From: a virus
Virus record (IMG/VR): IMGVR_UViG_3300042888_001512
Location: 1 to 42,730 of that record
Direction: 5' to 3' (one strand)
DNA: 42,730 nucleotides
The position numbers were made by a program, and so were the translations under genes. Positions 5,142 through 36,369 of this stretch are shown here, piece by piece. How positions within the stretch are numbered: position 1 is the stretch's first letter; the number at the start of each line of letters is the position of its first letter. Below the pieces are notes generated by a model that saw only the letters and a program-made list of their open reading frames with translations, was not told the origin of the DNA and did no database searches.

Positions 5142-5831
5142 ATGGAAATTCTTAAAAAAAACGAAATAAATAAAAAAGGTATTCTTGTCGAATATGACGC
5201 AGGATACATTTCCCCAAAAGATAATAGACATTTTGTAAATGAAATGTCAAACTTAACCAAAGGTCAACCTATTATAGAAGAACCTTTGGTTGTTTATGCC
5301 GTAATGCAAAAGTATGGTGTAGAGAATAGAAATGGTAGAGTATACCCAGAGGCTATCTTAAGAAGAGAGGCAGAAAACTATCTAAAATTAATCAAAGAAA
5401 AAAGAGCATTAGGAGAGGCGGATCACCCAGAATCTTCTATAGTTGCCGTAAGTAGAATTTCACATAACGTAGTCGATTTATGGTGGGAAGGTAATGTACT
5501 AATGGGTAAGTTAGAAATTATTATGTCACCAGGATTTGTTAATCAAGGAATAATTTCTTGTGAAGGTGATAGAGTTGCCAATTATATAAGAAAAGGTTTA
5601 AAAATCGGTGTATCATCAAGAGGTGTTGGTTCTTTAGAAAAAGAGGGTGGTAAGAATATTGTTCAAGATGACTTTGAATTAATTTGTTGGGACATAGTTA
5701 CCTCACCCTCAACTCCAGGATCTTGGATTTATAGTGAGGAACCTTCTGTCGAACAACAAATGTCAGAATCTAAAATAAAAAATAAAGATAATCTATTAAA
5801 AGACTCTTTAAATAATTTTTTATTGGATTAA
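5142..5831 (+). CDS. gp21: Prohead core protease, gp21-like (peptidase family S77)
   Basis: This serine protease is built into the prohead and cleaves the scaffold and the capsid N-terminus during maturation. The family signatures are visible: NRNGRVYP (residues 62-69), GEADHPE with the likely catalytic His95, and GVSSRGVGS with the likely catalytic Ser at 158-159. The length of 229 residues is close to T4 gp21 (212). Its Asn- and Lys-rich C-terminus may be a self-processing or core-binding tail. The gene lies before the scaffold and major capsid genes, the T4 order 21-22-23. The start at 5142 follows a TATTTATA box and a short leader without a Shine-Dalgarno sequence. Confidence 0.93.
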   Translation: MEILKKNEINKKGILVEYDAGYISPKDNRHFVNEMSNLTKGQPIIEEPLVVYAVMQKYGVENRNGRVYPEAILRREAENYLKLIKEKRALGEADHPESSIVAVSRISHNVVDLWWEGNVLMGKLEIIMSPGFVNQGIISCEGDRVANYIRKGLKIGVSSRGVGSLEKEGGKNIVQDDFELICWDIVTSPSTPGSWIYSEEPSVEQQMSESKIKNKDNLLKDSLNNFLLD

Positions 5832-20216: not shown

Positions 20217-21131
20217 TTATTTTCTAATCACATTATAATTACCTTCGAACCAATCTATAGTTTCTTTTAACCCTTCATAAAGTGGTGTAAATTTAAAGTT
20301 AGGTAGGTAATTTTTAATTTTAGAATTATCACTTGGTTTTCTAAATTGACCATCAGGCTTTGATGAATCAAATATAACGTCTCCTTTGAAGTTCATCAAT
20401 TCTACAATGATACCAACGACTTCTTTTATCGATATTTCTTCCGATGTAGATAAAATGATTGGTTCGTTTTCTTCATAATTATTTAATACCCATTCAGTAA
20501 GTTTAGATACATCTCTACTAAAAATAAATTCTCTTAGTGGAGTACCACTACCCCAAATAGAAAAGTCTGTTTTATTTTCTCTAGCCAAATAACATTTATG
20601 AATTAATGACGGTATTACATGCCCATTCTCTATGTCGTAATTATCTTTTGGACCATAAATATTTGTCGGTATTACTGATTTATAGTTAACACCATATTGT
20701 TCATTATACGACTTAATTTGTACATCTACCATTCGTTTCGCGTATGCATAAGCATCATTAGAAAAATGTGGTGGACCTAAATGTATTTTTTTTTCAGTTA
20801 GCGGGTAATCAACATCATTAGGGAACACACACGTAGATAAAAATGCAACTAGTTTTTTAACACCAAATAATCTTGCACTTTCAATTATATTTGTGTTCAT
20901 CATTATGTTGTCGTAAAAAAACTCACCCTTATATTTCATATTACTACCAACTCCACCTACTTTTGCCGCACAATGTATGATACCATCAAAATTATGAGAC
21001 TCTATTAAAGTGTTAACTTCACCAGTAATTCTAAAATCCACATCTTTTGATGTGGGTTTAAAATATTGTTCACCGATAAATTCAGATCCAACTAAACCAC
21101 TTCCTCCTGTAACTAATATTTTATTTCCCAT
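20217..21131 (-). CDS. fcl: GDP-L-fucose synthase (GDP-4-keto-6-deoxymannose epimerase/reductase)
   Basis: The enzyme converts GDP-4-keto-6-deoxy-D-mannose to GDP-L-fucose with NADPH, in the cytoplasm. It is an extended short-chain dehydrogenase of 304 residues. It has the nucleotide-binding motif TGGSGLVG (8-15), the WcaG-type segments HCAAKVGGVGSNM (53-65) and LSTCVFP (98-104, with the conserved Cys), and the catalytic Tyr128/Lys132 in YAYAK. Length matches the family (about 310-320). Its ATG overlaps the end of the GDP-mannose dehydratase gene by 11 bases, so the two steps of the pathway are coupled. With GT10 and GT11 fucosyltransferases in the same run, the product is clearly intended for transfer. 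Confidence 0.93.
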   Translation of the reverse strand: MGNKILVTGGSGLVGSEFIGEQYFKPTSKDVDFRITGEVNTLIESHNFDGIIHCAAKVGGVGSNMKYKGEFFYDNIMMNTNIIESARLFGVKKLVAFLSTCVFPNDVDYPLTEKKIHLGPPHFSNDAYAYAKRMVDVQIKSYNEQYGVNYKSVIPTNIYGPKDNYDIENGHVIPSLIHKCYLARENKTDFSIWGSGTPLREFIFSRDVSKLTEWVLNNYEENEPIILSTSEEISIKEVVGIIVELMNFKGDVIFDSSKPDGQFRKPSDNSKIKNYLPNFKFTPLYEGLKETIDWFEGNYNVIRK

Positions 21132-22098
21132 AATATTCTAACCAGTATTCTAACATTTCATCTAACATAGTTTCAAAAGTATAAATAGGGTTCCAATCTA
21201 ATTCTTTCTTTAGTTTAGAAGAATCACCTTTTAAAATTTCTAACTCCTCAGGTCTAAAATGTTTTTCATCTACAACAATATAATCTAAATAATTTAATTG
21301 TAAATAATTAAAAACGTATTCACAAAGGTCTTTTACGGAATGTGAAACTCCTGTTGAACAGACGTAGTCATCTGGTTTATCTGACTGCAACATCAACCAC
21401 ATTGCGTAGACATAGTCTTTTGCATGACCCCAATCTCTTGTTGCAGTTAAATTCCCAATATGTAATTTATCTTGTAACCCTAATTTAATCCTAACCGCAG
21501 CCTTAACTACCTTATTAGTAACAAAGTTTGTCCCTCTTCTCGGTGATTCGTGATTAAATAGAATACCGTTCCATATTTTCATATCATAAGAATTTCTATA
21601 ATTTCTACAGATATTATATGAAAATACTTTTGCACATCCATATGGGGATACTGGATTCATAGGTGTGGTTTCTCTTTGGTATCCATCGGAATCAATGGAA
21701 TTTCCAAACATTTCAGATGAAGATGCCTGATAAATTTTCGACTGTGGGGATACCATTCTTATCGCCTCTAAAAGATTAAGTGTACCCACACCAGTAACAT
21801 TTGCAGTATATATTGGTTGATCGAAACTAATTCTAACGTGTGATTGTGCAGCCAAATTATAAACTTCATCTGGTTGTACTTTAGATAAAATTCTAATTAA
21901 CGATGCCATATCCGTTAAATCCGCATACTCTAAATTTATTAAATTACCATCTCTTAAAGATTCAATTCTTGATGATTGTGTTTCAGATACTGAGTTTCTT
22001 TTCACAGTTCCCCAAACCTCATATCCCTTTTCTAAAAGAAATTCTGCTAAATATGAGCCATCTTGCCCATTAATTCCAGTTATAAGTGCTTTTTTCAT
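21121..22098 (-). CDS. gmd: GDP-mannose 4,6-dehydratase
   Basis: The enzyme takes GDP-D-mannose to GDP-4-keto-6-deoxy-D-mannose, the first committed step to GDP-L-fucose (or GDP-rhamnose and related sugars). The short-chain dehydrogenase of 325 residues shows TGINGQDGSYLAE (7-19), NLAAQSHV (81-88), ASSSEMFG (125-132) and catalytic Tyr153/Lys157 in YGCAK. The substrate-side motif LFNHESPRRG is intact. It is somewhat shorter than the usual bacterial enzyme (about 350-370). The next gene encodes the second enzyme of the route. No mannose-activating enzyme (ManC/ManB) is certain here, so GDP-mannose is presumably drawn from the host, although nucleotidyltransferases of unknown specificity are present nearby. 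Confidence 0.95.
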   Translation of the reverse strand: MKKALITGINGQDGSYLAEFLLEKGYEVWGTVKRNSVSETQSSRIESLRDGNLINLEYADLTDMASLIRILSKVQPDEVYNLAAQSHVRISFDQPIYTANVTGVGTLNLLEAIRMVSPQSKIYQASSSEMFGNSIDSDGYQRETTPMNPVSPYGCAKVFSYNICRNYRNSYDMKIWNGILFNHESPRRGTNFVTNKVVKAAVRIKLGLQDKLHIGNLTATRDWGHAKDYVYAMWLMLQSDKPDDYVCSTGVSHSVKDLCEYVFNYLQLNYLDYIVVDEKHFRPEELEILKGDSSKLKKELDWNPIYTFETMLDEMLEYWLEYYGK

Positions 22099-22538
22099 TT
22101 TTTATATTTTTTAATGTAATCTGAACATATACCTAAACATTCAGTTAATTCCCAATCTTTTACCGATTCAGGTAACACCGCAATTGATCGCGATGTTAAT
22201 TTTTTACCAGGAAATGTCCATATAAAATTTTTAGAAGTTAGTGTTATATCATCTTCTTGATGCCAGAAGTAGTTAATTTCATACCCACATTCCTGAAAAT
22301 ACAATATAGATTCTATATTTTTACAATGTACCCACAATTTAGATAATCTATCTTTAAACCATCTAAAATCTACACCGTATTGTGGTTTATCGTGTCCTAA
22401 AAATAACACACCATCTATATACCAAACATCTACCTCAACATCATAACCTTCACTGATTGCCTTATCTATGAACATTGGTTCGTTTTCATAAGACTCAAAC
22501 TTACCATTTAAGTTACCTCTATGAGAAATCAAAATCAT
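22095..22538 (-). CDS. Short glycerophosphodiester phosphodiesterase-like protein
   Basis: The family cleaves glycerophosphodiesters with a TIM-barrel fold. At 147 residues this is well below the usual 230-300, yet the active-site pattern is complete at the N-terminus: SHRG (residues 5-8), YENE (17-20), VEVDVW (34-39) and LGHD (47-50). The C-terminal half of the barrel is shortened but retains strand-like segments. It overlaps the SGNH gene upstream and the gmd gene downstream by 4 bases each. In this context it may act on glycerol-phosphate-containing glycans or simply bind a phosphodiester. Substrate is unknown. Similar short forms occur in polysaccharide loci. Confidence 0.72.
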   Translation of the reverse strand: MILISHRGNLNGKFESYENEPMFIDKAISEGYDVEVDVWYIDGVLFLGHDKPQYGVDFRWFKDRLSKLWVHCKNIESILYFQECGYEINYFWHQEDDITLTSKNFIWTFPGKKLTSRSIAVLPESVKDWELTECLGICSDYIKKYKK

Positions 22539-23173: not shown

Positions 23174-24137
23174 ATTTTATAATATTTTCACTTAAATTGT
23201 TATAAAAATTAATTTCATCTTGTTCACCATTTTCACCACCAATACCCCATGGGTTTTGATTACCGTAAACAGTATTAAACATAGGGTGAATACCAAATCC
23301 ATTTTTAACAAATAAGAACTTTTTATTGTTGTCCCTTTTGTATTTATTTAACGCTATTTCATCGTATGCGTCTACTGTTGGATGTGATAATATATTAACC
23401 CATTCAGATGTTTTTATAAAAAACATACTATTAGTGAAATATGGTGAATGGATTTCAAATAATTCATAATTATTATCGGAAGTAAATTTATCAATATTTT
23501 TTAAAATATAGTTATTAATTTCCATCTGAGCTTCATATGAAATCCTAAGTGGGTGAATACCTTTTGTAATAGTGTTTAATGAATTTAAACCTTCGTAAAA
23601 CTTATTATAATCCCATTCAGTAGCGTTTATTGTAAACTGATTCAAAGGTGTGTAGTCTACACTCCATAAACCATTTGGCATTGGTCTGTTTAAAAAATGT
23701 TTATAAACAATATCTCTAACTGAAAAATCATCAATAAAATCATTAATAAAAAAATCACATGATGGAATATTATTAGACATAGTTGGTGCTAAAGTTAATA
23801 CTTCATCATTGTTTAATATATCAACATTTTCAATTAGGTAATCCCAAACATAATTGTTAATAAAACAATCTTCATCTAATTTAACTGAATATTCAGTATC
23901 AGTTGAAATAGCAATTCTTATTTTATTTAAGTAATTATGGTGTGCGTTAATTACATGTATTGTATATTCAATACCTAAACTATCACATTTATTAACCCAA
24001 TCATTGTCATGCGTTGCTAAAACATTTAATTTTAATTTTAGTTTATTTTCTGGTTTTATTTTAGATAGAAAATAAAACATTAAATTTGAGTAATCTAATC
24101 TATTGTGTGATAAATAATTTATAGTTATTGTTTTCAT
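23154..24137 (-). CDS. Probable GT-A type glycosyltransferase
   Basis: The 327-residue soluble protein starts with a strand and loop (TITINYLSHNRLDYSNLMFY) like GT-A enzymes. The segment YSVKLDEDCFINN (about residues 83-95) is a good candidate for the acidic DxD donor site. The later segments NPWGIGGENGEQDEINFYNN and FGIHPMF may form the acceptor side. It overlaps the SGNH gene by 20 bases and the next gene by 4. No specific CAZy family is assigned. The glycosyltransferase call is supported by fold pattern and context and is weaker than for the GT2, GT10, GT11 and GT25 genes. Confidence 0.65.
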   Translation of the reverse strand: MKTITINYLSHNRLDYSNLMFYFLSKIKPENKLKLKLNVLATHDNDWVNKCDSLGIEYTIHVINAHHNYLNKIRIAISTDTEYSVKLDEDCFINNYVWDYLIENVDILNNDEVLTLAPTMSNNIPSCDFFINDFIDDFSVRDIVYKHFLNRPMPNGLWSVDYTPLNQFTINATEWDYNKFYEGLNSLNTITKGIHPLRISYEAQMEINNYILKNIDKFTSDNNYELFEIHSPYFTNSMFFIKTSEWVNILSHPTVDAYDEIALNKYKRDNNKKFLFVKNGFGIHPMFNTVYGNQNPWGIGGENGEQDEINFYNNLSENIIKYDTLYR

Positions 24138-24925
24138 TTCATATAATTTTGTCTAATAAATTGTTTTAATTCACAATTTTTAGGGTAATTAACTCTTTTA
24201 ACAGAGAAATAACCTTGATTGAATTTTTCAACAATTTGATTTATTGTTATTACCCAATTATAATTAGGTTTATTTGATGGGTCGTAAGTACCAAAGTAAG
24301 GTGGGAACTCCCATTGTTGTCCGCTAAGTAAAATCATATAAGGTAGAAAAATATTTATCATATCATCATTAGGGTAATATTCTAAACATTTGTCTAAATG
24401 CTGCTTAGCCAATAACATAACTTCTTTTGTTACTGTCATACATTCCCAATTAGCACTCATAGGTAAATCTATATTGTATTCTAGATATAAATTTTTAGGG
24501 TCCCAACGACCATATGGTTGCTGTAATGGAAACCCTACAATAGTTTTGTCTGAGTCTTTCCCATTATATGATGAAACCCAATCTTCAGTATTTAAAAATT
24601 GTGCATAATTAACACCTTTTTCAAAGTTAATTCCATTTATAAAGTATTGGTTAGATGAAACTAAACAAAAGTGTTCAAAACTATTTATTTCTTCTTCACT
24701 TATATTTTTAATTAAATCAATCAATGCACCAAAAATAAAACTAGAATGGTTTAAAGGACCAACCATATGACGCATTCTAATTTTAGGATGATCTAATGTT
24801 GGGTGATTAATCATGAAATCACAATTATCATGGAAATAAGATATGTTAGATATCATATCATCAACATCTTCAGTCGTATGTGTTGTTGAATGAGCAAATA
24901 TTATAAACGCTGTTTTAGATTTCAT
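24134..24925 (-). CDS. Possible GT14-like (core-2/I-branching type) glycosyltransferase
   Basis: The 263-residue protein begins TAFIIFAHSTTHTTEDVDDM, followed by FHDNCDFMINHPT, LVSSNQYFINGINFEKGVNY and a WECMTVTKE segment (about residues 170-180). This order resembles branching-enzyme-like transferases (GT14 and related), where SxxDxPL-type loops precede the acceptor site. No signal or membrane segment is present. Overlaps are 11 bases with the aldolase-like gene and 4 with the next gene. If correct it would add a branch sugar. The alternative is another GT-A family with a similar layout. Confidence in transferase function is moderate. Confidence 0.55.
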   Translation of the reverse strand: MKSKTAFIIFAHSTTHTTEDVDDMISNISYFHDNCDFMINHPTLDHPKIRMRHMVGPLNHSSFIFGALIDLIKNISEEEINSFEHFCLVSSNQYFINGINFEKGVNYAQFLNTEDWVSSYNGKDSDKTIVGFPLQQPYGRWDPKNLYLEYNIDLPMSANWECMTVTKEVMLLAKQHLDKCLEYYPNDDMINIFLPYMILLSGQQWEFPPYFGTYDPSNKPNYNWVITINQIVEKFNQGYFSVKRVNYPKNCELKQFIRQNYMK

Positions 24926-25913
24926 TTATAGTTTTTATTAATTCGTCAATTCTGTTGTGTATTGCTTGTTGTACTTCAGAATCTAAATTGTTATAATTCA
25001 ATTTATTTTTAAGTTCAATAAATTTAGGTTCAGAGAAAACATAATGACCACTTATGTTTATGATTTCTTCTTTGTTATCTTCTGGTATAAAATCAGCGTC
25101 AACCCATTTTACCCATCTTTTTGATTCATAACAAATTTCATAAAATTCATCTAGTAATTCTATATGATTAGTTTTAATTATGTTTAAAATAATTTTTGTT
25201 TCTATTTGTCCAAATTCTGGGGCAATATTGATACAGTTTAACCCATTATTAAATTTCGATTTAACTAATTCATTTGTTAGGTAATCACCATTATGTTCTT
25301 TTGAAATCATATCATGATTTCTGGCAACTTTAACCATTTCAATCAACCTATCTTGATTAAAATTACCGATGTTTGTGTTACCTTTTAATGCTGTTCCAGA
25401 TTGGATTACAGCGTATTTAATTTGGCCATATATGTCTAACGGTAGTAATTCTTTTAAGTCTTCTAAAAGATTGTTTAATTCTATTTCATTTGTTGGTCTG
25501 ATTGCTTCTTCAGTTCCAACCTCAAATAACATGTTTGGATTTAATCTATAACCTTTTAAAATAAATTCAACTGTGGCTAATAACCCATCACGATATTCTT
25601 TATGTTTTTTCCAAACATCAACATGTATTATATCGAAATATTTGCAATCTTCAATAAAAGAATCTATACCGTCATCTTCACTATACCCTTGTGATGGTCC
25701 AGCATGGTCTCTTACTAATAAGATTTTATTAGATTTGCTTCTTACATATTCGCAGAAGTCTTTAGTTGTCCAATTGTTAACATAACCACCATTAAACTCT
25801 ACTTGCCTTCTAGATGGTATTAACCCAATTTCAACGTTATTTTCATTTGAGTAATTAATAATTGCGTCAACAATATTTTTACTCATCGGTCCTATAAATA
25901 TTTTTGGTTTCAT
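24915..25913 (-). CDS. GatZ/KbaZ-type tagatose-bisphosphate aldolase-like protein
   Basis: GatZ/KbaZ proteins are TIM-barrel partners of the class II tagatose-bisphosphate aldolases. The 332 residues show the family segments IGLIPSRRQVE (about 31-41), LLVRDHAGPSQGY (about 65-77), LFEVGTEEA and KEHNGDYLTNE (about 205-215), all in the expected order. Typical GatZ is about 420 residues, so this is a shorter version. No GatY/KbaY catalytic partner is seen, which suggests it works alone, perhaps building or cleaving an unusual sugar precursor. It is followed (upstream in sequence) by a nucleotidyltransferase-kinase, cupin and HAD phosphatase in the same transcript. Reaction unknown. Confidence 0.8.
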   Translation of the reverse strand: MKPKIFIGPMSKNIVDAIINYSNENNVEIGLIPSRRQVEFNGGYVNNWTTKDFCEYVRSKSNKILLVRDHAGPSQGYSEDDGIDSFIEDCKYFDIIHVDVWKKHKEYRDGLLATVEFILKGYRLNPNMLFEVGTEEAIRPTNEIELNNLLEDLKELLPLDIYGQIKYAVIQSGTALKGNTNIGNFNQDRLIEMVKVARNHDMISKEHNGDYLTNELVKSKFNNGLNCINIAPEFGQIETKIILNIIKTNHIELLDEFYEICYESKRWVKWVDADFIPEDNKEEIINISGHYVFSEPKFIELKNKLNYNNLDSEVQQAIHNRIDELIKTINEI

Positions 25914-25925
25914 ACACCAAATATA

Positions 25926-27476
25926 TTATTTATAAAACACTTTGTAAAGATTAAAGCGACCAAAATAATATAAAAACTCACCCATTTTGTAATCATGTAA
26001 TGGCGACATGTTTAACCATATGATTGCTGTCAGTGTTTGAACCTTTTTTAAATCTAATCCATTGTCAAGAATCCACTTATGTAACTTTTCTCTACAATTA
26101 GTTAAAATATCACTTCTTAAAATATCACATTTAATACCGTTTGATGATTTTTTAACTGAGAATAATTCTTTATGGACAATATCGTGATTGAATAATAAAT
26201 TGTGATTTAATTTAGCTAAGTCATAATAGATGTCACCATTTTTTAAATCACCACCAAAATCTTGTCTCCAATCTAACAAAACAAATTCACGATTACCTTT
26301 ATAAATTATATTATCTAAAATGTAATCACCATGAAATTGATAATAAGTGTCTGAGCATAACCAATTTTTATTTATTTCTTTTATCATATCAATAACTGGT
26401 GGTACTACCATACCATTGATGGTAATTTCTTCATCACTTATTTTATTATCATTAAATAATTTTTGTAATCGTTCATAAGTTTTATCAAAATAAAACTTTT
26501 TAGTTATTTTTTTAAAGTCTTCAGACTGACCATGTTTAACCCATAGGTTGTTTTTACTCCAATCTAAAAAATCTTCAAAAATAATTTCATTTACTGACGT
26601 TGCTAATAAATCACCAGCAGCATATTCGTATTTGTAAAAATTATCTTTACTATCAATCAATTTAGGTGTTAAACCATATAGTTGTTTACATCGTTCAACT
26701 CTGTTAGCACAAATTGTTTTATTATAGAAAAATTTAATAACAAAATCATTAAATAAAAATATTGATTCATCTACTTTATCTAACAATTCAAATTTGTCAT
26801 ATATAACTTCTCTGGCATGTTTTAATTCAAACACATTACCTATGTCTAACCAATTAAAATATTCTTTTGTTTCCCATTTAATATTCATTCGATTGATTGA
26901 GTGACAATCGCTTAATGTTGTATCGCTAGTATCTGCTTCATATTCCTCTTGTAGTGAATCCCAAAACAGTTTATAATCTTTTATACCAGCAAGTCCAATA
27001 TAAGCAAAATTAGACGTTAAATCACCTTTATCATTTATCATTCTATTAGGGATAAAAGATAAAGTTCTATATTGTGAATTGTTTTCTTTGAATTGACAAG
27101 CTAACCAGTTTTCTGTTGGTTCTTTAATTTCTTCAGTTATAATAGTATCAGCTGCATGAAATATAAATGGACATCGTAATTCATCTTTAGCTTTTAACAT
27201 TGAGTAACCAAGTGATGAACCTTCACCTTCATATTTATCAACTTCTATAAATGTAATTTTTCTTTCTGGATAAGCTAGTGTTAAAAAATCTTTAACTTGT
27301 TCTCCAAAATAACCAACAGTTACAACTAATTCAACTTCTTTAGGATATGCTTCTACGATATATGATATCGCTGGTTTTTTACCAACTCTAACTAAACATT
27401 TATTAGTGTATTTAGTTAAATCACCTAATCTAGAACCAACACCACTAGTAGTTATTAAAACTTTATACTCGACCAT
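25926..27476 (-). CDS. Bifunctional sugar nucleotidyltransferase and APH-type kinase
   Basis: Residues about 1-235 form a nucleotidyltransferase: LITTSGVGSRLGDLTKYTNK (GxGxRL, with Lys of the following KCL/KKP), and FIFHAADTII with the metal-binding Asp. Residues about 240-516 form an aminoglycoside/choline-kinase-like phosphotransferase with the Brenner motif FHGDYILDNIIY (about 379-390) and LLDWRQDFGG (about 402-411). The fusion would phosphorylate a small substrate and then activate it as an NDP derivative, much as separate LicA and LicC do for choline. It overlaps the cupin gene by 14 bases. Donor nucleotide and substrate are unknown. Confidence 0.85.
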   Translation of the reverse strand: MVEYKVLITTSGVGSRLGDLTKYTNKCLVRVGKKPAISYIVEAYPKEVELVVTVGYFGEQVKDFLTLAYPERKITFIEVDKYEGEGSSLGYSMLKAKDELRCPFIFHAADTIITEEIKEPTENWLACQFKENNSQYRTLSFIPNRMINDKGDLTSNFAYIGLAGIKDYKLFWDSLQEEYEADTSDTTLSDCHSINRMNIKWETKEYFNWLDIGNVFELKHAREVIYDKFELLDKVDESIFLFNDFVIKFFYNKTICANRVERCKQLYGLTPKLIDSKDNFYKYEYAAGDLLATSVNEIIFEDFLDWSKNNLWVKHGQSEDFKKITKKFYFDKTYERLQKLFNDNKISDEEITINGMVVPPVIDMIKEINKNWLCSDTYYQFHGDYILDNIIYKGNREFVLLDWRQDFGGDLKNGDIYYDLAKLNHNLLFNHDIVHKELFSVKKSSNGIKCDILRSDILTNCREKLHKWILDNGLDLKKVQTLTAIIWLNMSPLHDYKMGEFLYYFGRFNLYKVFYK

Positions 27477-27816
27477 ATTTATCTTCTATTCTAATAACGT
27501 CATCTAGAAAATTTGTAGAACTTTCTAAATACAAACTGTCAACGATTGCCGACATTCTGTGAACTACAAATGGTTCAATAGTGTAATACTCACCTTCATT
27601 TAAAATCATTTCGGTTAAGGTGTCTTTGTCTGGACCAATTTCAAATTTAATTTGACCTTTTAAAACATAAAAAGATTCATGTTTTTTCTCATGGTACTGT
27701 AAGCTGCAACTATTTCCAGCTGTCATGAATAATTCTTTAACAACATAATTTTCATTAACTTCAATCCATTTTTCCCATCCCCATGGTTTATCAACTTTTG
27801 TAACTTCTTTTTTCAT
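27463..27816 (-). CDS. Cupin of the mannose-6-phosphate isomerase C-terminal type
   Basis: This 117-residue single cupin starts KPWGWEKWIEV, the signature segment of type II phosphomannose isomerase and GDP-mannose pyrophosphorylase C-terminal domains. It continues with SLQYHEKKHESFYVLKGQ (residues about 38-55), giving the two His and Glu metal ligands, and later PFVVHRM with the last His. It may isomerise or epimerise a phosphosugar. It lies between a HAD phosphatase and the nucleotidyltransferase-kinase, overlapping the latter by 14 bases, so it is probably a step in the same activation pathway. It is shorter than a full PMI, and substrate is not determined. Confidence 0.83.
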   Translation of the reverse strand: MKKEVTKVDKPWGWEKWIEVNENYVVKELFMTAGNSCSLQYHEKKHESFYVLKGQIKFEIGPDKDTLTEMILNEGEYYTIEPFVVHRMSAIVDSLYLESSTNFLDDVIRIEDKYGRV

Positions 27817-27817
27817 A

Positions 27818-28177
27818 TTATAAATCTTTTATTGAATTTATACCTTCATTTCGTTTAAGGTTTATTGCTATTGCTGTGTCATGTTCTTTGTCTTTTTTTC
27901 TATCATTGACAACAACTCTGATTCCACCTCCTAGACCCATTATTAATTGATCATAAAAAATACCTAACTCAGCTAATTGTTTAACGGTTATATCTCTAAC
28001 ACCTTCACGTCTTCCAGTTGTTAAAATAATGTTATAACCTTTTCTATCCCATTCAGATAACTTTTCTAAAGTGCCATCTAAAAGTCTAGGTGTTTTAGTA
28101 AATTGCTCTGCAATATTTTCGGAATGATCAATGAGTGTTCCATCAATGTCTAAAAAAATTGTTTTTGGTCTATTCAT
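27818..28177 (-). CDS. Small HAD-family phosphatase
   Basis: The 119-residue protein has an intact HAD motif I, IFLDIDGTLID (Asp10 and Asp12), motif II LTTGR, and a motif IV-like VVVNDRKKD (about residues 88-96). No cap domain is present, as in the capless HAD proteins found in capsule and LPS gene clusters. It lies 1 base from the cupin and 16 bases from the upstream glycosyltransferase-like gene. Likely it dephosphorylates a sugar phosphate in the same pathway as the cupin, kinase-nucleotidyltransferase and aldolase-like protein. Confidence 0.85.
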   Translation of the reverse strand: MNRPKTIFLDIDGTLIDHSENIAEQFTKTPRLLDGTLEKLSEWDRKGYNIILTTGRREGVRDITVKQLAELGIFYDQLIMGLGGGIRVVVNDRKKDKEHDTAIAINLKRNEGINSIKDL

Positions 28178-32728: not shown

Positions 32729-34102
32729 TTAATCAATAAAATGTTCTAAATAATTTTTTAAATCTTCTGGTGTACCTAAACCCCACATTTTTTCAATGTT
32801 ATACGGTTTAAATTTAAAACCATCAGATATAGCTTCATTGTAAACTGGTGCAACATAAAACTCATTATTAACTCTAATGTTTTTTTCAATCATTTGTTCT
32901 GCATATTTAACATAATCAGAACCTTTATTCCAATAATATACCCCAACAGTTGCAATATCACTTATAGGTTTTTTTTCAGCTATTTCAGTTATATAACCAT
33001 TTTCATTTAATTTAACAAAAGACCATTTAGGGTGTGTTGCTTTAAATGTTAACATACCTCCATCTAAATTGTCGTTAGTCATAGAATAGTAGAAACTATT
33101 ACTATCCCACTCAACAAATTGGTCTGAATTTGCTATAAGTAAATGTTTATTATTATTTATATATTCTTTAGCTAAAAGAGTTGTACATGCAGCACCTTCA
33201 GTTACACCGTCAACTTGAACTATTTCGCAATTAGGTGTGATTAGGTTTAATAGGTATTTTAAATTATATTTTTCATAGTGTTCCTTTTGTACTATGTAGA
33301 TAAAATTAGCTTTAATATTTAAGTTTTCAATTACCACTTGAATCATCGGTTTATTATTAACTTCTATAAGTGGTTTAGGGAATGTATATCCAGCTAAACT
33401 AAATCTAGAACCAGCACCTGCCATCGGAATTAAAATGTTAAATTCATCCGATTCCCATTTTTGTTCTGTTTTAGATCCATACGTTACACTTTTAATTAAT
33501 TTTGTTATCTTATCATAGGTAACATCATTTGGTGTTTCTACTGCACATAAATAAGCACCAGAATCCAATGCGGCTTGTCTTCCATGGAAACTATCTTCAA
33601 TAACCATAGTTTCATTTGGTTTAACCCCAGCATGTACCATGCTTTTAAGATACATTTCTGGGTGTGGTTTTGAATATTTGACATCTTCATTACCAAAGTA
33701 ATGATCAACATATTCTAAAAGACCAGTTTTATGTAACATTAATTTAATAGATTCTCTAATAGAATTAGATGCGACATATATTTTATAACCATCTTTTTTA
33801 AGTTTCCTTAAAACATCTTTTAATTTTAAATCTTCTTTTAATTGTTCTTTTATCACATCAAAAGTTAATGTTTGTTTTAACTCCCAAATTTTATTATGAG
33901 TTGACTGCGGTAACCCTTTATCTGTAGATAATAAATTTAATTTGGTTTTGGTTGGTAACCCATCGTATTTAGTTAAGTGTTCTTCTCTGTTTATAGCAAA
34001 TTTCCCATCAATTTGTTCTAAAGCTTTATTTAACGATTCGTAATGTATTTCTTTAGCATCTACTAATACACCATCTAAATCAAAAACTATTAATTTAATC
34101 AT
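32729..34102 (-). CDS. Fusion of HAD phosphatase and sugar nucleotidyltransferase
   Basis: Residues about 1-205 are a beta-phosphoglucomutase-like HAD domain: VFDLDGVLVD (Asp8, Asp10), YVASNS, YSKPHPEMY with the motif III Lys, and MVIEDSFHG. Residues about 220-457 are a nucleotidyltransferase: ILIPMAGAGSRFSLAGYTFPKP with the GxGxRF...KP signature, and LLIANSDQFVEWD with the metal-binding Asp. Both active sites look intact. The pairing suggests a phosphosugar is dephosphorylated at one position or isomerised and then activated as an NDP-sugar. It abuts its neighbours by one base on either side. Substrate unknown. Confidence 0.87.
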   Translation of the reverse strand: MIKLIVFDLDGVLVDAKEIHYESLNKALEQIDGKFAINREEHLTKYDGLPTKTKLNLLSTDKGLPQSTHNKIWELKQTLTFDVIKEQLKEDLKLKDVLRKLKKDGYKIYVASNSIRESIKLMLHKTGLLEYVDHYFGNEDVKYSKPHPEMYLKSMVHAGVKPNETMVIEDSFHGRQAALDSGAYLCAVETPNDVTYDKITKLIKSVTYGSKTEQKWESDEFNILIPMAGAGSRFSLAGYTFPKPLIEVNNKPMIQVVIENLNIKANFIYIVQKEHYEKYNLKYLLNLITPNCEIVQVDGVTEGAACTTLLAKEYINNNKHLLIANSDQFVEWDSNSFYYSMTNDNLDGGMLTFKATHPKWSFVKLNENGYITEIAEKKPISDIATVGVYYWNKGSDYVKYAEQMIEKNIRVNNEFYVAPVYNEAISDGFKFKPYNIEKMWGLGTPEDLKNYLEHFID

Positions 34103-34103
34103 A

Positions 34104-34790
34104 TTAATTTAATTGTTTTAAAACATTTATTTTATTATTATTTGGTTCATTAAAAACCCTATCTTTACCCCCTTTAATTATAAATACACTAGAATTGGTA
34201 TTCATATTAAATTTATATTTTTCTCTAACTTGTTTGGACCATAAAACATCTTCACCTTCACCCCACGATAAACTTTCATCTAATGGGAATTCTAACATAA
34301 CATCTTTTTTGGCAACCCAATACGAACCAGATATGTACATATATTTAGATAAATGTGTCATATCATAAGGTATTAAACAATCTTTACCAATAATATCATC
34401 CATTTGATTACCATTTAATGGCCAAATACACCAATCTCTAAATCTTTCACCATTGTTATTTATTATTTTATCAATTCTTATTTTAAAATTATTACCAGAA
34501 GTTAACTGACCTTGATACCATCCTTCCATTAATTTTATATAATCATGTAAATAAACAATATTTTCAAATTTAGACTCTTTAGTGATTAAATTTTTCTTTT
34601 TTGTTATCCAAGCCTTTTTTAAACTCTCGTCAAAATTTAAAATTTTAGTATTTTTTCTTACAATACTACAGTTACCCACAATTAATATTTCATAATTGGG
34701 TATATTTTCATTTTCTATTGAGTCGATGATCTCATTTATCATCGTATCGTTGTTACCGCCAGTTATTATCCCAAATGTAAAATCCATCAT
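34104..34790 (-). CDS. GT2-like glycosyltransferase
   Basis: The 228-residue protein starts FTFGIITGGNNDTMINEIID, with NYEILIVGNCS (about residues 32-42) as the second strand of a GT-A fold. The donor-site region is less canonical (VYLHDYIKLMEGWY, about 79-92, HDY in place of DxD). YISGSYWVAKKDVMLEFPLD and SWGEGEDVLWSKQVREKY (about 172-190) fit the GG and ED acceptor-side motifs of GT2 enzymes. It overlaps the GT10 gene by 4 bases in ATGATG context. Likely a soluble transferase of unknown specificity. Confidence 0.72.
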   Translation of the reverse strand: MMDFTFGIITGGNNDTMINEIIDSIENENIPNYEILIVGNCSIVRKNTKILNFDESLKKAWITKKKNLITKESKFENIVYLHDYIKLMEGWYQGQLTSGNNFKIRIDKIINNNGERFRDWCIWPLNGNQMDDIIGKDCLIPYDMTHLSKYMYISGSYWVAKKDVMLEFPLDESLSWGEGEDVLWSKQVREKYKFNMNTNSSVFIIKGGKDRVFNEPNNNKINVLKQLN

Positions 34791-35608
34791 TTAAATATTT
34801 TTGTATTCTTATATATCCAATCCTCGGATATTAAAAATTCTTTTGCCTTTTCAAAATTATTTTTTATACTTTCATATTTTTCATTATAGTCTTTTTCAGT
34901 TAAATTGTAAAGTATATTTTCTAACTCATCTACTGTATCAAATACTATAATACCATTAATATCAAAAAAATTTTCTATTGATGGACACCCATAGTATATG
35001 GGGATAGTACCTGTCATAAAACAATCTATTATTTTCTCAGTAAAGTAATAATCCATTTTTATATTTTCAATAACTATAGAAAACCTATAATCGATTAAAC
35101 CTTCCGTTTTTAACTCTATTGGTTTATATCCTCTACCGTAAGTGGTAATTACATCTTTAAATTTATCAATTATCACATGTCTTAATTTATGACCATGTGT
35201 TGTTTTCTTATTAGAGGATATGATAGATACTAATTTGTTTTTTTCATATATTTTTTGTTTTTCTTTAGGTATCCAACATCCACCATGTGGATAAAATAAA
35301 TAATTTTCACCAATATCTAACAAATCTTTATTATATGTTAAAACATTTTTAAAATCATTATTTACTGTTTTAATAAAATTATAAATGTAAGGATTAACAG
35401 ATGGGGGTTCTAATAACCAACCAATTTTATTTTCTGAGTTACCAATATTTAAATTTAGAAAATTATCCGTAAAGAAAGTAGTGTCTTCTAAATTTAAATT
35501 TTCATCCCTATACCACTCAATAAATTTAGATGTTTGGTGATCAGTACTATATTTTGCATGTGAAAAATTAGCGTCAAATATTTTTACTTTTTTTAAATTC
35601 GAATCCAT
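34787..35608 (-). CDS. GT10 alpha-1,3-type fucosyltransferase
   Basis: GT10 enzymes transfer L-fucose from GDP-fucose to N-acetylglucosamine or glucose in an alpha-1,3 (or 1,4) linkage, as in Lewis antigens. Of 273 residues, the family signature is clear at 175-210: YRFSIVIENIKMDYYFTEK followed by IIDCFMTGTIPIYYGCPSI, where the Glu, Tyr and Lys contact GDP-fucose. GRGYKPIELKTEG (158-170) precedes it as expected. No transmembrane anchor, unlike animal enzymes; no heptad-repeat tail, unlike Helicobacter pylori FucTs. It overlaps the GT11 gene by 16 bases, and the GDP-fucose route is encoded in the same run. Family call secure, linkage inferred. Confidence 0.9.
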   Translation of the reverse strand: MDSNLKKVKIFDANFSHAKYSTDHQTSKFIEWYRDENLNLEDTTFFTDNFLNLNIGNSENKIGWLLEPPSVNPYIYNFIKTVNNDFKNVLTYNKDLLDIGENYLFYPHGGCWIPKEKQKIYEKNKLVSIISSNKKTTHGHKLRHVIIDKFKDVITTYGRGYKPIELKTEGLIDYRFSIVIENIKMDYYFTEKIIDCFMTGTIPIYYGCPSIENFFDINGIIVFDTVDELENILYNLTEKDYNEKYESIKNNFEKAKEFLISEDWIYKNTKIFK

Positions 35609-36369
35609 TCTTTAGGTATTAAATCACTGTCATTTATATTTGTTTTTTCTGAAAACCAAATCTTTGGACAAATTATTTTTTTGTTTTTATTTTTATTTAA
35701 CCATGCACCCCACCAAGAAAAAGATGAATTTGCGTTAATATTATTATCACAGTTTTTTATAACTGATAAATCAAATACCTCATCTTCGTAATGAGAATAA
35801 TAAACGTTTTCACCTTTTATATTTTCTTTACACCACCCAATGTCGTCAGAAATAACTATAAAATTATTATCCTTAAAATATTTCATAGATTCTATGTAGT
35901 ATTCTATAGGGCAAGATGGGTGAACGTCTTTAAATTTTAGATAATCACCTCTTCTAACATGAATCGATGTTAAACTTTTACCATTTCTAATTGTATCTAA
36001 ATAATCATTAACTATCTTATCTACATCATCAAAGTAGAAAATTTCTTTTATATAATTTTCTTGATCTTTAAAATATTTTTCACTTTGAAAATATCCGTTA
36101 AGTATTACATTTTTCATATTCGGTATTTCCGAAAAATTAAAATTAAGTTCTTGATATGTAATTAAATTATCACTACTATCAATTACTTTATTTTTTATGT
36201 TTTTAAATATTGTATTAGAATAGTGATTAGAAGGTTTACCCTGATTTGGGGTTTGACAATTACTAAAGTCAAAATAATAATCACTACCTACTTTTTTTGC
36301 GTAACCAATAGTTGTTGCAATTTGAAACATTTGATTACCTAACCCACCTAATAAATTACATGTTATCAT
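35593..36369 (-). CDS. GT11 alpha-1,2-type fucosyltransferase
   Basis: GT11 enzymes add L-fucose from GDP-fucose, usually alpha-1,2 to galactose (H-antigen type). The 258-residue protein carries all signatures: LLGGLGNQMFQIATTIGYA (6-24), SIHVRRGDYLKF (135-146, binding the GDP diphosphate), and SSFSWWGAWL (215-224) near the C-terminus. It is a little shorter than typical bacterial FutC (about 300). No membrane anchor is present. Coupled to the upstream GT2 gene by ATGA and to the GT10 gene by a 16-base overlap. Family assignment is firm; some GT11 enzymes make other linkages, so alpha-1,2 is an inference. Confidence 0.94.
   Translation of the reverse strand: MITCNLLGGLGNQMFQIATTIGYAKKVGSDYYFDFSNCQTPNQGKPSNHYSNTIFKNIKNKVIDSSDNLITYQELNFNFSEIPNMKNVILNGYFQSEKYFKDQENYIKEIFYFDDVDKIVNDYLDTIRNGKSLTSIHVRRGDYLKFKDVHPSCPIEYYIESMKYFKDNNFIVISDDIGWCKENIKGENVYYSHYEDEVFDLSVIKNCDNNINANSSFSWWGAWLNKNKNKKIICPKIWFSEKTNINDSDLIPKEWIRI

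Follow-up and report, generated by a model that had tools for sequence, protein, structure and literature searches.

The virus record IMGVR_UViG_3300042888_001512 (IMG/VR) was analysed over its full length of 42,730 nucleotides (the window), and the analysis centred on a cassette of four contiguous genes (Table 1). The cassette encodes a HAD phosphatase, a cupin, a nucleotidyltransferase-kinase fusion (NTK) and a TIM-barrel protein resembling GatZ and KbaZ (KbaZ-like). The balance of evidence tips slightly towards a small de novo nucleotide-sugar pathway in a T4-like phage, in which a rare sugar would be made from a common sugar phosphate and activated for a glycan. The initial annotation had proposed a four-gene route to a nucleoside diphosphate (NDP)-linked building block. 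Gene content, co-occurrence, conservation and folds support that proposal; we infer every reaction, the reaction order, the sugar identity and the nucleotide from sequence, structural models and analogy.

The four open reading frames (ORFs), all on the minus strand, were located exactly where the initial annotation had placed them and would be transcribed in the order HAD, cupin, NTK, KbaZ-like. The HAD and cupin genes are separated by 1 bp, the cupin and NTK genes overlap by 14 bp, and 12 bp lie between the NTK and KbaZ-like genes. The motifs cited earlier were all confirmed (LVRDHAGP, SKEHNGDYL, TSGVGSRLGDLT and FHGDYILDN). A capsule-type locus of a bacterial host was considered and rejected. 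The stretch is a virus record, a T4-like tailed phage contig with family matches to terminase, portal and major head protein on plus-strand genes.

Viral contigs were searched with the KbaZ-like alignment alone. This gave 161 relatives, of which 80 were kept and 79 provided usable loci. Within 3.5 kb, an NTK was present in 77/79 loci, a HAD phosphatase in 73/79 and a cupin in 71/79. Co-occurrence of the four families, on which the proposal had been staked beforehand, was found in 69 of the 79. The ten incomplete loci were mostly short or cut near the cassette. The loci included near-duplicates; at a KbaZ-like identity below 92%, all four genes were still held by 58 loci. The ratio of nonsynonymous to synonymous substitution rates (dN/dS) of the cassette genes against four relatives was 0.00-0.29, so the genes are under purifying selection, and together with the 58 loci this argues that the four-gene set is not due to chance.

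The same KbaZ-like scan was applied to 84,980 bacterial and archaeal genomes. Among the 80 matches kept, approximately 20 were close members of the subfamily, and several of their contigs are possibly viral. NTK at E <1e-50 was found in 1/399 genomes of one Flavobacteriaceae-family draw, 1/295 of one archaeal-phylum draw, and 8/380 and 8/192 of two bacterial phylum draws. Our conclusion is that the sampled viruses have the pathway much more often than the sampled cells do; the two collections were sampled differently, hence no ratio is given.

The KbaZ-like proteins form a subfamily of their own that lies below the Pfam cut-off. The window protein scored 16.1 bits against PF08013 (cut-off 26.7), and 8/78 subfamily members matched at E 0.001. 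A model built from 77-78 aligned relatives (predicted local distance difference test, pLDDT, 95.5) showed a GatZ-type barrel, in answer to the structure-prediction check proposed at the outset. The top five PDB folds were chains of 3txv and 2fiq (GatZ), with template modelling (TM) scores of 0.73-0.80. Class II aldolases followed, and identity to the best solved neighbours was 11-15%. A search of BFVD with the model gave no close viral match. The active site was aligned with E. coli GatZ, KbaZ, GatY and KbaY. The catalytic Asp and metal ligands of GatZ (D87, H88, E171, H257) correspond to D69, H70, E135 and H207, which are kept in 76/76 viral members, as are E131 and D210.

These residues bear on whether the protein is instead a true aldolase, which would join dihydroxyacetone phosphate or dihydroxyacetone to an aldehyde and leave the cupin, HAD and NTK to convert the resulting ketose into an NDP-sugar or NDP-higher sugar. 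The protein shares a fold family with class II aldolases. The invariant E131 is a Glu common to GatY/KbaY and not to GatZ, and N229 is aldolase-like rather than GatZ-like. One KbaZ-like member matches PF01116, as does the Patescibacteria locus L213, and transketolase halves occur in about ten viral loci. However, the third aldolase His, the second metal His (GTAHG), is missing. At the C1-phosphate loop, class II aldolases carry HG(A/G)S with N-x-(D/A)-T, whereas the KbaZ-like protein has HNGDY and NIAP there (HSTDY and KVGP in GatZ), a difference that would favour a ketose without a C1 phosphate and hence epimerisation. The nearest solved folds, GatZ and KbaZ, act as epimerases, converting fructose-6-phosphate to tagatose-6-phosphate (PMC11907403). 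Because of this activity and the GatZ-like loop, the KbaZ-like protein is likelier, judged from residues, model and analogy, to be a stand-alone ketose-phosphate C4-epimerase than an aldolase, and the aldolase is considered unlikely.

A GatY/FBA relative (PF01116) was sought in 20 virus records of up to 281 kb, some of which may be fragments, and none was found; the E. coli control was positive. The missing GatY/KbaY partner reported in the initial annotation was thereby borne out. Its view of the protein as an aldolase-like enzyme in its own right stands as regards independence from GatY, and gives way to a likelier epimerase as regards the reaction.

The NTK was also below Pfam cut-offs (APH, PF01636, 19.4 against 23.2 bits; NTP_transf_3, 17.4 against 27). 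Its model, from an alignment of 67 relatives, reached a pLDDT of 93.6. The top fold matches support a LicC/MurU-type nucleotidyltransferase domain in the N-terminal half. Residues G12, G14, K26, D110 and D211 are invariant in the 67 members and R16 is nearly so. In the kinase half, the HGDxxxxN motif and second Asp (H382, G383, D384, N389, D402) are likewise invariant. The MurU equivalog NF045761 (NCBIfam) gave 25.0 bits and its cut-off of 250 was not reached; a MurU-like fold is present. By sequence and by fold alike, the nucleotidyltransferase domain matches best to the CTP:phosphocholine cytidylyltransferase LicC (51.4 bits against 1jyk), and the kinase is choline-kinase-like. The NTK could on these grounds be a LicC/LicA-like enzyme making a CDP-linked non-sugar or polyol head group, with KbaZ, cupin and HAD as unrelated neighbours. 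This seems very unlikely given that the four families keep together in the viral loci, that bacteria lacking KbaZ again have sugar-phosphate partners (RPE and HxlB, below), and that RmlA and MurU rank close behind LicC among the fold matches.

The HAD phosphatase and the cupin passed their Pfam cut-offs (27 bits for PF03767 and 23.6 bits for PF01050). In aligned HAD members, D10 (with D12, the DxD nucleophile motif), R56 and D92 are kept in 79/79 and T54 in 74/79; weak matches to HAD-IIIA families were also obtained. Cupin residues Q40, H42, E47 and H86, resembling metal ligands, and K27 and R109 are kept in 77/77. By analogy with type II phosphomannose isomerase, the cupin is proposed to be an aldose-ketose isomerase.

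The proposed pathway is as follows. A ketose phosphate, most simply fructose-6-phosphate, would be epimerised at C4 by the KbaZ-like enzyme through a metal-dependent retro-aldol/aldol reaction, as proposed for GatZ. The cupin would interconvert ketose and aldose, the HAD phosphatase would strip the distal phosphate, and the kinase and nucleotidyltransferase halves of NTK would respectively phosphorylate C1 and add the nucleotide. The NDP-sugar would then pass to glycosyltransferases of the same island. The simplest full route would run from fructose-6-phosphate through tagatose-6-phosphate, talose-6-phosphate, talose and talose-1-phosphate to NDP-talose, the product being NDP-D-talose if fructose-6-phosphate is the substrate and the cupin keeps phosphomannose-isomerase stereochemistry. 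A heptulose or pentulose as starting compound would give a different rare aldose. Talose is a guess and a doubtful one. Galactose is a less likely product, because GalE offers an easy route to UDP-galactose. The last three steps are modelled on MupP-AmgK-MurU, where the 6-phosphate is removed, C1 is phosphorylated and UMP is added (PMC5371407), because a HAD phosphatase, a kinase and a nucleotidyltransferase occur there in the same series. The HAD phosphatase might alternatively act on the ketose phosphate, as its covariation with KbaZ and the HxpA route (below) would suit, or after the kinase. Salvage of a substrate before activation, as first suggested, is disfavoured as the main role; de novo supply is likelier because epimerase, isomerase and phosphatase accompany the kinase.

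Action after the kinase is the order of heptose biosynthesis, which proceeds through GmhA, HddA/HldE, GmhB and HddC, kinase and nucleotidyltransferase being fused in HldE. The cassette shows the same four activities and a comparable fusion, so that the cupin could isomerise, the kinase form a 1,n-bisphosphate, the HAD remove the distal phosphate and the nucleotidyltransferase activate a sugar whose skeleton may be C7. The HAD-IIIA matches fit this logic, and the split transketolase of about ten loci could supply sedoheptulose-7-phosphate. Known heptose pathways, however, have no role for KbaZ, and the kinase is APH-like, neither GHMP nor PfkB. HAD distances track those of KbaZ (r 0.71) much more closely than those of NTK (r 0.28), which favours HAD action near KbaZ, though gene order may explain it. 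A heptose-type order is therefore judged improbable, and the C4-epimerase route is retained.

Two versions of the cassette were distinguished. In version I, that of the window, cupin and NTK are separate. Version II has a cupin-NTK fusion (approximately 640 aa) and a shikimate-dehydrogenase-like ORF (approximately 205 aa) ahead of KbaZ. This ORF (L011:5381-5995 and 25 other loci) accompanies the fusion wherever complete (23/23 fusion loci), and only three loci, all cut, have it without a visible fusion. All 26 copies retain the catalytic Lys and Asp, and the cofactor domain is short. Against aroE (TIGR00507, cut-off 200.2), bacterial L213 scored 224 bits and viral L011, with a shortened cofactor domain, 73.9 bits.

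The version label needs 12 changes on the KbaZ tree, where well-supported branches make 8 unavoidable for the version II group, and one change on the NTK tree for viral rows. Pairwise distances were correlated between cupin and NTK (r 0.74) to a degree similar to the KbaZ-HAD value above; across the two pairs r was 0.11-0.33. Loci L026 and L028 have a common gene order throughout. At the DNA level they are 84% identical as far as position 5484 and 84% again from 8000, the KbaZ start, and the differing block is confined to the interval. It consists of the cupin-NTK fusion and shikimate-dehydrogenase-like gene in L026, and of cupin, NTK and a TylF-like methyltransferase in L028. KbaZ is 82% and HAD 75% identical between these loci, NTK 31% and cupin 35%. 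L051 and L055 behave similarly (KbaZ 92%, NTK 34%). These comparisons indicate that, while the neighbouring KbaZ-HAD pair is conserved, viruses exchange the cupin-NTK block for the fusion and shikimate-dehydrogenase-like gene. The pathway is modular, and the window carries one of its versions; the four genes are not a unique block. As the remaining island is common to L026 and L028, we lean towards both blocks yielding identical or closely similar sugars. A methyltransferase with the C-methyltransferase C-terminal domain PF08484 (L011:6956-8089 and 23 other loci) often adjoins KbaZ, which suggests that the sugar is methylated in some versions.

The strongest functional clue is a replacement pattern in Patescibacteria. 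L213 and L214 hold a KdsC-like HAD, a full-length AroE-like protein, NTK, KbaZ and cupin. L209, L210 and L211 hold NTK and a KdsC-like HAD with ribulose-phosphate 3-epimerase (RPE), without KbaZ and cupin, and L210 and L211 also hold 6-phospho-3-hexuloisomerase (HxlB). In L210 the epimerase scored 218.8 bits (cut-off 212.6) and the hexuloisomerase 192.8 (cut-off 160); the calls for L209 and L211 were made from sequence likeness. The NTKs of these three loci fall in one clade with the KbaZ-partnered NTKs of L109 and L212 (99% support, Shimodaira-Hasegawa-like approximate likelihood ratio test, SH-aLRT). This clade and its change of partners imply that KbaZ, alone or with the cupin, occupies a place that a ketose-phosphate epimerase and a sugar-phosphate isomerase can also fill. 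The polysaccharide loci L210:7171-10517, L211 and L209 may themselves encode another rare-sugar pathway. Version II is carried by L104, a polysaccharide locus of Flavobacteriaceae.

Several points weigh against the proposed pathway. The reactions of all four enzymes are predicted, from sequence and models, rather than shown. The family-specific GatZ residues C20, E44 and K279 (named in PMC11907403) are G, I and N in the KbaZ-like protein, and its invariant R68, K205 and E131 are G, E and V in GatZ; with these losses and new invariant residues, substrate or even reaction may differ. The shikimate-dehydrogenase-like gene of version II is not accounted for by the route. Locus L019, without cupin and HAD, is likely a real exception, and some KbaZ-NTK loci (L109, L212) are without a cupin. 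Marine Bacteroidetes carry a lone KbaZ, and a search of 10 of these genomes found no full-length NTK. Part of the co-occurrence stems from common descent of the viruses.

Other sugar-phosphate genes were recorded among the relatives. The lone KbaZ-like gene (L092:9001-9978 and 12 similar marine Bacteroidetes loci) lies mostly between beta-lactamase-like hydrolase and succinate dehydrogenase genes. Relatives with the same active-site type sit in fructose-type phosphotransferase system (PTS) operons (L131:7335-11222, L124, L160, L003), with no GatY seen adjacent; the Erwinia copy is followed by transaldolase. These operons probably serve an uncharacterised sugar use, and their KbaZ-like genes count in favour of the proposed pathway. 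Listeria phage matches (H2-H5) look like PTS-operon sequence of bacteria within phage records; they were grouped with the catabolic relatives. The split transketolase, with thiamine-binding and pyrimidine-binding halves as two ORFs (L026:15442-16532), occurs in about ten viral glycan islands. L044:327-2081 and L048 hold a class II aldolase/adducin-type gene and a transaldolase/F6P-aldolase beside cupin and HAD, another virus-borne sugar-phosphate set.

Table 1. Cassette genes in order of transcription, followed by context genes of the window.
Feature	Coordinates	Strand	Evidence or remark
HAD phosphatase, 119 aa, first cassette gene	27818-28177	-	PF03767 34.4 bits
Cupin, type II phosphomannose-isomerase kind, 117 aa; proposed ketose/aldose isomerase	27463-27816	-	PF01050 35.0 bits
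NTK, whole ORF, 516 aa	25926-27476	-	
NTK residues 1-230, nucleotidyltransferase domain (GxGxRL), approximate boundary	26787-27476	-	Folds LicC, RmlA, MurU
NTK residues 231-516 and stop, APH/choline-kinase-like kinase domain	25926-26786	-	PF01636 E 9e-4, below cut-off
GatZ/KbaZ-like TIM-barrel, 332 aa; proposed stand-alone ketose-phosphate C4-epimerase	24915-25913	-	Model, fold, residues
Context ORF outside the core, 263 aa	24134-24925	-	Glycosyltransferase-like by position only; 11 bp overlap with KbaZ
GDP-mannose 4,6-dehydratase (context)	21121-22098	-	PF16363 406 bits
GDP-fucose-synthase-like reductase (context)	20217-21131	-	PF01370 156 bits

The island around the cassette also holds GT10 and GT11 fucosyltransferase-like genes, methyltransferases and a HAD-nucleotidyltransferase fusion. 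The fucose set comprises the GDP-fucose genes at 20217-22098 and the GT10 and GT11 genes at 34787-36369, and the phage probably makes and uses GDP-fucose. These genes and transferases count in favour of the proposed pathway. The fusion (HAD_2 with an NTP_transferase domain, 457 aa, 32729-34102) has relatives in 17 viral loci and is possibly a second activated-sugar enzyme of the same island. The 263-aa ORF at 24134-24925 gave no confident match in a Pfam search and belongs to family 17, present in 15 viral loci. A short ORF at 22095-22538, which starts SHRGN and has a glycerophosphodiesterase-like look, gave no Pfam match; its family occurs in 19 viral loci.

Glycosyltransferase islands of pelagimyophages have been proposed to alter the host O-chain (PMC7029224). 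Options for the destination of the cassette product are host O-chain change, virion glycosylation and DNA glycosylation. We advance as a tentative view, held at somewhat less than even confidence, that aquatic phages, far more than sampled bacteria, carry an undescribed modular pathway for an NDP-linked rare sugar with a GatZ-type epimerase, and that they swap its activating half beside a fixed KbaZ-HAD pair, altering or re-creating their own or the host surface sugar. The usual reading of phage glycan islands is one of glycosyltransferases acting on host sugars. If the view is correct, the phage would bring a building block that the host may not have, with a bearing on virion decoration, host-surface change and superinfection, and a biosynthetic role would be gained for the GatZ/KbaZ fold, which has long been classed as a chaperone of aldolase. 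Block exchange with a break at the KbaZ start codon provides natural pairs differing only in the activating half.

Each enzyme family or its fold is already known, as is nucleotide-sugar synthesis as a type of pathway. In the open literature searched, no description was found of the four-gene combination, its viral spread, the sub-threshold KbaZ subfamily or the block exchange. The KbaZ-like protein agrees with GatZ/KbaZ (PF08013; 2fiq, 3txv) in fold, catalytic Asp, two His and Glu metal ligands, and the D-Y and P after the last two strands. It differs in its identity of approximately 13-15%, its length (332 against approximately 420 aa), its sub-cut-off Pfam score, the loss of C20/E44/K279, the missing GatY partner and its biosynthetic rather than catabolic neighbours. 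The series of HAD phosphatase, APH-family kinase and small sugar nucleotidyltransferase is shared with MupP-AmgK-MurU, but in the cassette the last two are fused, and the input is an epimerase and isomerase for a ketose phosphate, not recycled N-acetylmuramic acid. The ADP-/GDP-heptose pathway (GmhA, HldE or HddA/HddC, GmhB) likewise combines isomerase, kinase, HAD phosphatase and nucleotidyltransferase, whereas the cassette has a cupin in place of a SIS isomerase, an APH kinase and the additional KbaZ-like enzyme. The cupin resembles the ManC/AlgA C-terminus (PF01050) in its conserved Q-H-E-H set and acidic/arginine C-terminal tail (IRIEDKYGRV), but stands alone or, in version II, is joined to an unrelated nucleotidyltransferase-kinase instead of a GMP domain. 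In Enterococcus phage 9183 (QOC57539, QOC57540) a HAD lies directly ahead of an NTK relative (22% identity over 96%), a pair that, unlike the window cassette, is without adjacent KbaZ or cupin. In E. coli engineered for sugar production, fructose-6-phosphate is converted by GatZ/KbaZ to tagatose-6-phosphate and by the HxpA phosphatase to tagatose (PMC11907403). The cassette similarly pairs a putative KbaZ-type C4-epimerase with a sugar phosphatase, but adds an isomerase and an activating enzyme.

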